From a virus, in the IMG/VR virus record IMGVR_UViG_3300034782_000011, positions 1 through 20,941 of that record: a stretch of 20,941 nt of DNA. The stretch is one strand, 5' to 3'. The notes below the pieces were generated by a model that worked only from the letters and a program-made list of their open reading frames with translations, searched no databases and was not told the DNA's origin. Positions 4,680-20,728 of this stretch are shown one piece after another. Each line of letters opens with the position of its first letter. Within the stretch, counting starts at the first letter, position 1. The position numbers and the translations under genes are program-made.

Positions 4680-4828
4680 TGCCATTACCAAAGCCAAGAG
4701 CGGATGAAGAAGAAAAGAAATTTATTGAGCGATGTATGAGTGATGAAGTTATGAAAAAAGAATACCCTAAACAGGCTCAAAGATTAGGCATATGCTATAC
4801 GCAATGGAGGGGCGATGTTCGGAAATAA
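4679..4828 (+). CDS. Conserved small phage protein of the PLPKPR...RCMSD type
   Basis: 49 residues, ATG at 4679 overlapping the preceding TGA, with GGAGG at 4670-4674 (4-nt spacing). The sequence follows a pattern I recognise from many phage head modules: a PLPKPR start, then F-I-x-R-C-M-S-D, then V-M-K-K-E-Y-P, then Q-A-Q-R-L-G-I-C-Y-T-Q-W. In other phages it occurs as a separate small protein or as the N-terminal part of a protease or capsid-related protein. The two Cys at residues 19 and 39 and the terminal W are part of the pattern. Its end overlaps the portal start (4815) by 14 bases. The function is not known. Confidence 0.75.
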   Translation: MPLPKPRADEEEKKFIERCMSDEVMKKEYPKQAQRLGICYTQWRGDVRK

Positions 4829-6908
4829 GAAATTAAAAGAAGAAATTATGGCACTCCAAGAAAAGCTTGAGAAAGCGCAGAAGTCAACGCCCGGGTTGGG
4901 TGTATACGGCGGTGATATTACTGCAAGTGAATATGATGATATAAGTCGAGATACATTGATTGAAGATTATATCAAAATGAGAAACGGCGATTGTATAGCA
5001 TCAACAAGCATTGATATTTTAACGCTGCCTATTTTAACAGGTGGTCATTCGTTCAGGGCAGACAAAGAGAATACAAAGTACAAACAAGCCGTTGAATATA
5101 TTGAACACACTTTTGATTCGTTTTTGTATTCGTACGACGATTATAAAAGACACTGTTTATTATATCTACCTTACGGGCATATCCTTTTTGAATATGTTTG
5201 GATTACAGATGAATGGAATGGAGCTATCACAAAGCGGCTGGCTTATATGTCACCTATTCAATATGAAACTATACATGAATATCTATACACTGAAAATATG
5301 CACTTTAAGGGTATTAAACACACCAAAGAAACGCTGAACGGCGGGATTAAGTTTGTTGATATTTACTTGGACAAATTACAACTGATTACAAATGATCAGG
5401 AGTTTAATGACGTTCGTGGACGGTCTATTTTAAGGCCTGCTAGGATGGCTTGGAAATACAAACAGGATATTCTTATCGGAACGTCAACAGCTATTCGCAG
5501 GGGCGGCATGATTCCAAGATTTACTGTGATGGAAGGTGCTACAGATGAAACAAGCTCAATCAGTAAGTGCAAAACAATGGGAAGGACTATAGCAAACACA
5601 AAAGAGGCTTATATAATTGACGCTGAAAATCAATATAAATTTAATCCTGTTATTCTACAAGGCCAGACACAAAACATGCCTATGTTGCAATATTTAGATA
5701 GGCAAATGTTATTTAATACTTTATCTCAATTCATTACAACCGGAATAGGTGAGAACGGATCAAGGGCAGCTACTGAAGCGCATAAAAGTCCTTATGAAAT
5801 GCGATCTCTTGCGGTATTGAATGATTTACAAAGGGCACATCAAAAGATGATTGATAAGATACTAGATGAAAGTCATTTAATACTGGCTTTTGATGAACGC
5901 CCACAAATACAATTAGAGAGCTTGAAACAGCATGATTTAACAAAAGTCCGTGAAAATCTAGCTGGTTTAGTACAGTCTAAATTAATCGATATTACACCGG
6001 AACTAAAAGTCTTAATTAATAAAATGTTCGGATTGCCTGAATTAACAGTAAAACAAATTGAGCAAATAGAAGAAGAGAAAAAACAGATTGCCGAACAAAT
6101 AGCGCAACCAAAAGAAGAAGAAGAAAAAGAGGATAAAAAAGAGGATGCTTTGTCATTGGAATATGATCTTGACACAATGGTGATTAAAGATTCTATTTCT
6201 GATATATTTTCATTACAAAGTGCAATAGAACATTATGAAGAGATGGCAAAACAGACAAAAGACAAACTTAATGCATTGTATGCAAAGGCTTTAAACGATG
6301 CGATAGAACAAATTGAAAGTAACGGGTCATTTCGGTTAAGGTTTAAGAGAGAGGCTCAACAGGCCATGGGTGATTTTTATGATAAAGGTTTTAATCGTGG
6401 ACGGCGTGATTTTAATAAGGAAGTTGATAAACTTAAAAACAATAATAAAGACTTAGAGATTATTAATTTACAGGTTGGCAGGAAAAAAAGCTCTATACTT
6501 AGGGCTATAGATAGATTATGGACTGCTTTAGAAGACGGATTAAATAGAATTGTAGCTATGCCAAAGCAAGCTATTTCCCAAGTTGGTGGGTTAAGGGAAT
6601 ACGCAACGGTTAAATTAAAGGATTCATACAAGAAAAATAAAAATGCCGTGATATTTACCGTTGAAAATTCCTACACAGACGGAAGAGCAAGAGCAAGTGA
6701 AGAAAACAAAGATGTAATTAGGCTATTAGAATATACGGCAATACTAGATAAAAATGTGTGTATTAATTGTGCACCTTTAGACGGCTCACAATTTACATTC
6801 AAAGAGGGAATTGATTTAGGGCTTAACATGCTATCTGGCCCGCTTAACCCACTTTGTGAGGGTGGTGATGCCTGTAGATGTCAATTAGTACCATTGGAGG
6901 TAATATGA
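4815..6908 (+). CDS. Portal protein (Mu gp29-like) fused to a MuF domain
   Basis: 697 residues from ATG 4815 with GGAGG at 4806-4810. Residues 30-415 form a gp29/DUF935-type portal: the signature FNDVRGRSILRPARMAWKYKQ (197-217) matches the 'GRSLLRP...W..K' motif of this family. Portals make the dodecameric ring through which DNA enters and leaves the head. A charged linker (about 412-445, mostly Glu and Lys) leads into a second region. Residues 600-697 hold a MuF/SPP1 gp7-like head morphogenesis motif: a Y-T-D-G-R-A-R-A-S-E stretch, C649-x2-C652, LDGSQF (655-660) and C681, C687, C689 near the end, as in the usual 'CxxC...LDG...CRC' pattern. In Mu the portal and F protein are separate genes. 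The TGA overlaps the ATG of the protease gene. Confidence 0.85.
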   Translation: MFGNKKLKEEIMALQEKLEKAQKSTPGLGVYGGDITASEYDDISRDTLIEDYIKMRNGDCIASTSIDILTLPILTGGHSFRADKENTKYKQAVEYIEHTFDSFLYSYDDYKRHCLLYLPYGHILFEYVWITDEWNGAITKRLAYMSPIQYETIHEYLYTENMHFKGIKHTKETLNGGIKFVDIYLDKLQLITNDQEFNDVRGRSILRPARMAWKYKQDILIGTSTAIRRGGMIPRFTVMEGATDETSSISKCKTMGRTIANTKEAYIIDAENQYKFNPVILQGQTQNMPMLQYLDRQMLFNTLSQFITTGIGENGSRAATEAHKSPYEMRSLAVLNDLQRAHQKMIDKILDESHLILAFDERPQIQLESLKQHDLTKVRENLAGLVQSKLIDITPELKVLINKMFGLPELTVKQIEQIEEEKKQIAEQIAQPKEEEEKEDKKEDALSLEYDLDTMVIKDSISDIFSLQSAIEHYEEMAKQTKDKLNALYAKALNDAIEQIESNGSFRLRFKREAQQAMGDFYDKGFNRGRRDFNKEVDKLKNNNKDLEIINLQVGRKKSSILRAIDRLWTALEDGLNRIVAMPKQAISQVGGLREYATVKLKDSYKKNKNAVIFTVENSYTDGRARASEENKDVIRLLEYTAILDKNVCINCAPLDGSQFTFKEGIDLGLNMLSGPLNPLCEGGDACRCQLVPLEVI

Positions 6909-7900: not shown

Positions 7901-8758
7901 ATGGCAGCAGTAACAGCTGAACAGATTAAAAGTTTTAAAAATTACTCTGGCCTTGTTAAATTTCCCGTTGCAAATGGTGAGACTATTTATAGCCAAGCTT
8001 TTGCATGTATTGATAACACTGGTTACCTTGTTAATCTTGCTACTACTACAGTAGCAGAGGCAAGAGTAATCGCAATCCCTTATGATAAATCAGCAAACGT
8101 AACCGGCCCTGCCGCTACAAGTGCAGCTGGTTCTATTGAAGGGACAAGCGGACTTGAAAAAGGGTCTGCGGTATCGGGAGATAAAACGGTCAGAGATTGT
8201 GTTGTAGACGGCTTGGTACTTTGTACTTTTTCGTCAATTGCGCAAAGTGATGTTGGAAAAGTTGTGTATGCAGCAAATAACAATGATCTTGACGAAAGTG
8301 CAAACGCAGGTGTACCAGTAGGGACACTTGTTGCTTATCTATCTAGTACAAGCGGATGGGTTGCACTCAATACTTTTTACATGGATGACGGCGTAAGGTT
8401 TTATAAGGGTGCATTGACAGCAACCACAGGCACAACTGGTGGAGGTGCTTTTTCTTGGGCTAACCCAATGGCAGAAACTATAATGATAACTCATTGTATA
8501 TTAGATATTAGCACGGCAGCAACAGGCGCCGCCAATGTAGATGTAGGCGTAGCCGCTAATGGCACAACCTCAAGCGACACTTTGCTTGACGGTCAAGATG
8601 TTGGAACGGCAGCCGTGGTATTATCAAGCCTTGTGAATAATGGCACTAATGGAGGTGTGGACAAAGCAACAAGCACTGAATATGTAACAGCAACAGCAAG
8701 CGCAACGCTGGCCGGTATGGTTGGCACAATTGGTATTTTTTACAGAATTTGGGAATAG
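7901..8758 (+). CDS. Head decoration / capsid-stabilising protein with an added C-terminal domain
   Basis: 285 residues, with AAAGGAG before ATG 7901. Residues 20-160 resemble phage capsid cement proteins: YSQAFACIDNTGYLV, then a Thr/Ala-rich turn, then DVGKVVYAANNNDLDES (117-133) and AGVPVGTLVAYL (136-147). Residues 185-285 look like a second beta-rich domain: METIMIT-type strand at 190-197, DVGVAANGTTSSDTLLDG (214-231) and a terminal GTIGIFYRIWE strand. The usual decoration proteins are 110-150 residues, so this one is roughly doubled. It lies between the scaffold and the major capsid gene, the normal place for such a protein. The domain call comes from resemblance and position and is not tested. 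Confidence 0.7.
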   Translation: MAAVTAEQIKSFKNYSGLVKFPVANGETIYSQAFACIDNTGYLVNLATTTVAEARVIAIPYDKSANVTGPAATSAAGSIEGTSGLEKGSAVSGDKTVRDCVVDGLVLCTFSSIAQSDVGKVVYAANNNDLDESANAGVPVGTLVAYLSSTSGWVALNTFYMDDGVRFYKGALTATTGTTGGGAFSWANPMAETIMITHCILDISTAATGAANVDVGVAANGTTSSDTLLDGQDVGTAAVVLSSLVNNGTNGGVDKATSTEYVTATASATLAGMVGTIGIFYRIWE

Positions 8759-19968: not shown

Positions 19969-20388
19969 TTAATTCCATGTTTTTGTTGCCATATATAACG
20001 CTTGTAAATACATATAGCGCTCATAAACTAAATCTATATTTTTTTTTCGTTCTGTTCCGAGTATTGGTTCATACCATTTACTGTTTACTTCTAGTATGGC
20101 ATGCGTTGAGGTGTTACCCTTTATGATTACCATTTCTGATTCAATAAAGTTTTCTTCACATAAATGCATTGCCAATATAGCATAATCTTCACAATCCCCC
20201 GTTTTCCTTTCCAGTGTTTCTGATGGTAATTGCCAATAATTAGTAACTCCATGAGCGTCTTTATCTGACTTATATTCTATTTCAGTAGAACAAAAATATA
20301 ATATTTCTTCTAGTGTTTTTGTCTGAAATCCCATTGTGCAATGAAACAGAAAAGGAATTAATAATAATAAAAATTGAAAGTTTTTCAT
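19969..20388 (-). CDS. Exported transglutaminase-like cysteine protease (BTLCP-like)
   Basis: 139 residues from ATG 20388, with AAGGAG (20396-20401) 7 nt before it. The N terminus MKNFQFLLLLIPFLFHC is a signal sequence, with Cys17 in a loose lipobox (LFHC), so the product may be a lipoprotein. YWQLPSETLERKTGDCEDYA (51-70) closely follows the bacterial transglutaminase-like cysteine proteinase (BTLCP) pattern, with catalytic Cys66. His96 in STHAILEV is the next catalytic residue. The third, normally Asp or Asn, is Glu107 in KWYEPI, which is unusual. It is short for the family (about 180-240). Its start lies 23 nt after the hammerhead cleavage site, and its stop is 11 nt before the SSB-like start. 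Confidence 0.75.
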   Translation of the reverse strand: MKNFQFLLLLIPFLFHCTMGFQTKTLEEILYFCSTEIEYKSDKDAHGVTNYWQLPSETLERKTGDCEDYAILAMHLCEENFIESEMVIIKGNTSTHAILEVNSKWYEPILGTERKKNIDLVYERYMYLQALYMATKTWN

Positions 20389-20404
20389 TGTTTAACTCCT
20401 TAAT

Positions 20405-20456
20405 ATTCGTTGACGCCTTTCGGCGTTTCGTCCTTTTAGGACTCATCAGAACGAAT
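20405..20456 (-). ncRNA. Type I hammerhead ribozyme
   Basis: On the - strand (5' to 3', from 20456) stem I strand AUUCGUU (20456-20450) is followed by CUGAUGA (20449-20443). Stem II is GUCC (20442-20439) with GGAC (20433-20430), loop UAAAA, or 5 bp with loop AAA. Then come GAA (20429-20427) and stem III ACGCC (20426-20422) with GGCGU (20417-20413), closed by a GAAA tetraloop. C17 is C20412, and the 3' strand of stem I is AACGAAU (20411-20405). All stems are perfectly paired and every invariant core base is present. Cleavage is predicted between 20412 and 20411. The ends lie in stem I, so it is type I. Stem I is short, with no clear loop for a tertiary contact, so activity may be modest. Confidence 0.92.
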
Positions 20457-20728
20457 TATTTTTTATAACCAAAAACTAGTCTGTAGCTTTCAATTGGTGT
20501 ACTATACCATAATTTAAAATAGCTATATCTTCCGTCAAAACCTGAAATTATATCTGCTACTTGCTCAATCTCTTTCTCAGATATTTTTTTATCCAATTCA
20601 AAATTACCACAGACACCTGATTTAATACCCAAACTAAATAATTTAATATTAGTTTCTTGATCATAATAAATCTTATTGGTATTAAGTTTTATTGAAAATG
20701 TTGTTGATACTTGTTTTAAATCATTCAT
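20456..20728 (-). CDS. Small protein of 90 residues, unknown
   Basis: ATG 20728, with AAGGAG (20735-20740 on the + strand as CTCCTT) before it. The sequence has alternating strands at the N terminus (TTFSIKLNTNKIYYD, LFSLGIKSGVCGNFEL), a helix E-I-E-Q-V-A-D-I-I-S-G-F and a final strand YRLVFGYKK, a small alpha-beta fold. No signal peptide or catalytic motif is present. The TAA stop (20458-20456) ends on the first base of the hammerhead, so cleavage would leave this message with a ribozyme-derived 3' end. Early-type phage genes of this kind are often unknown, and this one is not recognised. Confidence 0.7.
   Translation of the reverse strand: MNDLKQVSTTFSIKLNTNKIYYDQETNIKLFSLGIKSGVCGNFELDKKISEKEIEQVADIISGFDGRYSYFKLWYSTPIESYRLVFGYKK

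Follow-up and report, generated by a model that had tools for sequence, protein, structure and literature searches.

Prokaryotic hammerhead ribozymes were described by Perreault et al. in 2011 as clustered in prophages, together with the proposal that they cut long phage transcripts into operon- or gene-length messages (PMC3088659). Tandem prokaryotic hammerheads cleave in vitro, an Agrobacterium set also cleaved in E. coli, and a halovirus hammerhead lies 13 nt before a helicase gene, with a cited mapped 5′ end located ≤3 nt from the site (PMC3088659). A review from 2017 treated the role of prokaryotic hammerheads as open and noted their persistent link with phages (PMC6155905). Theta ribozymes, which are HDV-like and sit beside phage tRNAs (PMC10879173), are likewise small self-cleaving RNAs at phage RNA boundaries, but they belong to another class, occur at tRNA 3′ ends, and are relevant here only to the tRNA-linked hammerheads discussed in the last section.

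The hammerhead analyzed here comes from a virus fragment of 20,941 bases (the whole stretch is referred to as the window) and is a further member of this known phage kind, ordinary for it, as transcript-dividing phage hammerheads were already proposed in 2011. It resembles the Perreault et al. set (PMC3088659) in its core and architecture, its phage origin, its intergenic location, and its placement, suited to dividing a polycistronic transcript, and differs from that set in being a single copy within the fragment and in having Mu-like head genes and other genes around it. In comparison with HHphage of haloviruses HF1/HF2 (PMC3088659), an archaeal-virus structural variant with a mapped 5′ end and a start codon 13 nt downstream, the window copy is canonical and has its predicted cut 23 nt before the start codon. 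Set against the Rfam family RF00163 (Hammerhead_1), it is full length and has all core positions, while its stem I is short and without an internal loop. The anatomy of the ribozyme, its position, and a geometry common to other phages are read from the letters; transcription, cleavage, and all later steps are what we infer from them. On this basis, the element is probably a cis-acting type I hammerhead that divides the message of a leftward phage operon at a gene boundary. The window also gives access to a large population of phages whose hammerhead positions and tertiary contacts become statistically readable.

Setting and anatomy of the ribozyme

The + strand of the window encodes two Mu-like products, the head protein gpT and a protease, along with a portal and a tape-measure protein, while a leftward operon, with the ribozyme inside it, occupies the right end. 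The preliminary description placed a type I form between two co-directional phage genes, and this is what was found: the ribozyme is intergenic in a Mu-like phage fragment and shares the − strand with both neighboring genes. It was the only hammerhead detected in the 20.9-kb fragment with the Rfam and phage models. The gap between the flanking 90-aa and 139-aa genes measures 67 nt, whereas the adjacent junctions of the operon overlap or span approximately 10 nt, so that the junction with the ribozyme is the only wide one in an otherwise compact leftward operon. The features of the locus are as follows:

20456–20728, − strand: upstream gene, 90 aa, no family match; the ribozyme follows its stop codon
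20456–20458, − strand: UAA stop closing the upstream gene, with its final A opening the 7-bp stem I (same geometry seen in the census)
20405–20456, − strand: whole type I hammerhead, 52 nt (sequence; Rfam RF00163, 32.5 bits; phage hammerhead model, 65.2 bits)
20450–20456, − strand: stem I 5′ strand, AUUCGUU, pairing with 20405–20411
20443–20449, − strand: core box 1, CUGAUGA, invariant save U7 among 41 relatives
20430–20442, − strand: stem II, GUCC/GGAC, with loop UAAAA, or 5 bp with loop AAA (sequence, fold)
20427–20429, − strand: core box 2, GAA (sequence, alignment of relatives)
20413–20426, − strand: stem III, ACGCC/GGCGU, with a GAAA tetraloop; A15.1-U16.1 present (sequence, fold)
20411–20412, − strand: predicted cleavage site GUC^A, after C17 at 20412 (hammerhead rule)
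20405–20411, − strand: stem I 3′ strand, AACGAAU, with which the downstream product would begin after cleavage (sequence, fold)
20396–20401, − strand: Shine-Dalgarno AAGGAG, 7 nt before the AUG of the downstream gene (sequence)
19969–20388, − strand: downstream gene, 139 aa, transglutaminase-like cysteine proteinase fold (DUF553 / Peptidase_C93 / Transglut_core)

From 20456 to 20405 the − strand reads AUUCGUU-CUGAUGA-GUCC-UAAAA-GGAC-GAA-ACGCC-GAAA-GGCGU-C-AACGAAU. The CUGANGA ... GAA core of a type I hammerhead is present, as are the A15.1-U16.1 pair and three stems, of which stem I is open. Stem I has 7 bp (20456–20450 with 20411–20405; 6 bp without the outer A-U pair), stem II has 4 bp (20442–20439 with 20433–20430), to which U20438-A20434 may be added as a fifth pair leaving a loop of AAA, and stem III has 5 bp (20426–20422 with 20417–20413). 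The triplet GUC at 20414–20412 has the NUH form required of a cleavage site, and the hammerhead rule places the cut after C17. The claims made earlier for this site were borne out: each of the invariant hammerhead bases is found on the − strand, no mismatch occurs in any of the three stems, stem III is closed by the GAAA loop, and the coordinates, including the predicted cut at 20412/20411, are exact to the base. When the element was folded alone, the minimum-free-energy structure consisted of exactly the three hammerhead stems (z −2.9), and the same three stems were recovered in the minimum-free-energy fold of 261 nt around it. Past stem I, the Shine-Dalgarno begins after 3 nt, and the distance from the predicted cut to the downstream ATG is 23 nt. 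The N-terminus of the 139-aa product, as translated, is signal-peptide-like and ends in LFHC, which marks the protein as a possible lipoprotein.

Match scores and the phage hammerhead population

The Rfam model Hammerhead_1 matched positions 20406–20455 (− strand) end to end with a score of 32.5 bits (E = 1.1e−4 against all 4227 Rfam families, E = 2.6e−8 for the single family on the record alone), and this was the sole notable Rfam match in the window. No tRNA or other Rfam family was found at the ribozyme site, and a match to sR41 at 4700 was rejected as being far under its cut-off. The preliminary description had counted a missing above-threshold Infernal hit as grounds for refutation, and the score is indeed 1.5 bits short of the Rfam gathering score of 34, which is a database filing rule and not a biochemical one. 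Other phage copies scored 28.8–36.2 bits with the same model in three contigs and 40 bits in contig L022, indicating that the Rfam model is not tuned to phage copies. A covariance model trained on 41 phage hammerheads, with the window left out, gave the window 65.2 bits (E = 1.4e−16), a score that is favored by the fact that the model loci were fetched with a pattern modeled on the core and stem II of the window, and the second-best place in the window scored 10.3 bits; the Rfam score is free of this bias. Since copies from the same population score equally low and the population model is strongly positive, the sub-threshold Rfam score is a matter of the database cut-off.

Relatives of the phage itself were searched through its genes. 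The 139-aa gene recovered 7 distant relatives, with a convincing hammerhead in none of their records, and the scans with the 198-aa and 90-aa genes found no relatives. The gpT-like head protein, used alone and as an alignment, retrieved a single relative (L128, 41% identity), whose whole record contained no hammerhead; against annotated phages, the head gene reached ~31% at best and the 139-aa downstream gene found no match. Scanned bacterial genomes contained no relatives, and no other hammerhead in the viral contigs searched shared the stem I 5′ strand of the window. Across these gene, ribozyme, and genome scans, no close relative of the window phage was found.

The hammerhead population proved large, as a single strict type I pattern matched at least 119 IMG/VR stretches of viral contigs, and type I hammerheads are therefore common in the phages of these collections. 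The preliminary description had called hammerheads known in bacteria and phages but uncommon there, which these counts contradict. With a wider descriptor, 199 hammerheads were parsed among the matches listed, of which 170 were distinct with a stem I of ≥5 bp; stem I was exactly 6 bp long in 149 of the 199. The search pattern favors type I, and the counts cover type I, not types II and III.

Most of the 170 parsed hammerheads among the matches listed had a geometry similar to that of the window, and by a crude gene call, 103 of these 170 have a gene of their own strand on either side. Likewise among the matches listed, a long same-strand open frame ended between −60 and +30 of C3 for 126 of 163 hammerheads vs. 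785 of 3260 random places (24%), and a long-frame ATG was present 5–70 nt past the cut for 117 of 158 vs. 953 of 3400 random places (28%), with a median distance of 26 nt. The commonest stops in these matches were UAA just before C3 (28), UGA inside the core (21), and UAG 8 nt before C3 (14), a pattern that is partly built in because one frame of the core CUGAUGA reads UGA; the stop of the window begins at −9 relative to C3, within the main cluster. With a stop at stem I and the next ATG 20–30 nt past the cut, the shared geometry makes the idea of mRNA processing directly testable. The genes downstream of phage hammerheads were varied (RNA polymerase, anti-restriction, MazG-like, and unknown ones). 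In one contig (L079), eight type I copies within 14 kb split a row of small genes into blocks of ~1–6 genes, and series of hammerheads at successive gene boundaries were also observed in L047, L088, L063, and L126. Rfam type III matches were found in L079, L088, and L124 (the best at L079 8622–8676, 47.4 bits), so that hammerhead types are possibly mixed in such series.

Covariation in this population suggests that loop II and stem I make a genuine tertiary contact. Among the matches listed, 86 distinct copies had a loop II of 5 nt, and in these the last base of loop II and the base 3′ of stem I were U-A in 66, A-U in 14, and other combinations in 6 (loop II position 5 vs. base 3′ of stem I, Fisher p = 8e−15 for the U/A cells, kinship not corrected). 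Nearly all copies had U as the first base of loop II and A as the base 5′ of stem I, whereas the four members of one sequence family had A and U at these places. These flanking bases were absent from the search descriptor, while the three stems were part of it; the overall pairing of 98.6% in alignment A1 is accordingly a circular result where the stems are concerned and carries information solely on the two extra loop II-stem I pairs, each present in 90% of its rows. Pairing between loop II and stem I is the simple explanation, as in the U..U/A..A copies and in the swapped family the bases concerned cannot pair within their own helix, and the putative pairs agree with the reverse Hoogsteen pairs reported between loop II and stem I in type I hammerheads (PMC6155905). 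The window, with U...A in loop II and A/U flanking stem I, has the A-U version of the covarying position. Its bases would fit the contact, though A20456-U20405 and U20438-A20434 could lengthen stems I and II instead.

Proposed role and rival readings

In the reading that we favor, transcription of the operon would let the 52-nt element fold, with stem II docking on the end of stem I, and the RNA would cut after C20412 during or soon after transcription. The upstream message would then end at its 3′ side in the stem II and stem III hairpins with a 2′,3′-cyclic phosphate, whereas the downstream message would start with a 5′-OH and a 23-nt leader carrying the Shine-Dalgarno. The likely use of such a cut would be that the separated messages are free to decay and to be translated at different rates.

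A real, cutting ribozyme could instead serve mainly to tune the downstream gene, through the stability of its message or a freed ribosome-binding site, and not to separate messages. In favor of this, the ATG comes 23 nt after the predicted cut and the Shine-Dalgarno 3 nt past stem I, and in 31 of 58 phage Shine-Dalgarno cases the predicted accessibility rose by >0.1 on cleavage, with a fall in 3 of 58 (ordinary junctions were not compared). In the window, however, the predicted accessibility of the Shine-Dalgarno is unchanged (0.05 uncut, 0.04 cut), with pairing to the coding start predicted both before and after the cut, and an unmasking of translation by cleavage is thus unsupported here; we consider tuning as the main role unlikely. 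The Shine-Dalgarno stretch AAGGAGUUAA (20401–20392, − strand) is predicted to pair with UUAAUUCCUU, which consists of signal-peptide codons of its own gene, and the pairing may be a by-product of U-rich hydrophobic codons. Also unlikely is the idea that type I hammerheads serve many phages as a regular component of gene boundaries, with the window as one instance, in which a ribosome on the upstream gene would block folding and cleavage would report its translation. The ribozyme would in that case be fused to the upstream stop (at C3 −3, +1, −8, or nearby), and a finishing ribosome would cover stem I and the core.

The remaining explanations fare worse than a division of the operon message. 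The element could be a hammerhead that has decayed or lost activity, or a hairpin, for instance a terminator, with a mere resemblance to one. This would be in line with a score slightly below the Rfam cut-off and with the terminator-like score of the + strand, where T-rich letters come after the stem III hairpin; every core base and stem pair is nevertheless intact and the + strand genes end ~1 kb away, which makes this improbable. The + strand segment in question spans 20412–20427, with the stem III hairpin followed by TCGTCCTTTT. A terminator on the − strand was ruled out, as stem III is followed there by CAACGAAUAUU, with no U run. Hammerheads leave ligatable ends, and several phage contigs carry hammerhead series, so that the ribozyme could mark an end of an RNA unit that is circularized or ligated, with two hammerheads freeing a fragment and its ends then being joined. 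Against this, the window contains no second hammerhead, and Perreault et al. sought spliced or circular products and detected none (PMC3088659), leaving it a very slim prospect. Chance resemblance, which the preliminary description had rightly judged very unlikely, has no point in its favor and a negligible probability: no comparable motif occurred on either strand of 150 first-order Markov windows, the phage model gives the E value of 1.4e−16, and the element is placed exactly at a gene boundary. For practical purposes, we regard it as refuted.

Hammerheads linked to phage tRNAs

In a subset of the phage contigs (L050, L053, L131, L135, L137, L139, and L144), the predicted cut coincides with the first base of a tRNA (ARAGORN offset 0 or +1), for instance, at 8399–8525 in L050 and at 6483–6600 and 6633–6756 in L053. 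The tRNA was tRNA-Tyr in 5 of the 7 called cases, mostly tRNA-Tyr(GUA), and two further tRNA-Tyr-like cases were recognized by eye (L053 at 6525, and L143). The number of tRNA-linked hammerheads is a lower bound because the search pattern required a GGTTCGA T-arm. In these copies, the 3′ strand of stem I is at the same time the start of the tRNA acceptor stem. Their cleavage would generate the 5′ end of the tRNA, bearing a 5′-OH, with no need for RNase P, and a hammerhead at the 5′ end would mirror the theta ribozymes known at tRNA 3′ ends (PMC10879173).

A further set of copies (alignment A3: L011, L021, L029, L052, L067, L068, L082, L095, and L115) has a constant stem I, CTGTCT/AGACAG, and is often found inside or beside phage tRNA arrays. 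These hammerheads are followed by a conserved stretch of ~150 nt (ACCTTGTGGTGTA ... GGTTAG ... GGCATCCAAGGATAAACCACA), in which ARAGORN calls no tRNA and which is possibly an unnamed RNA.
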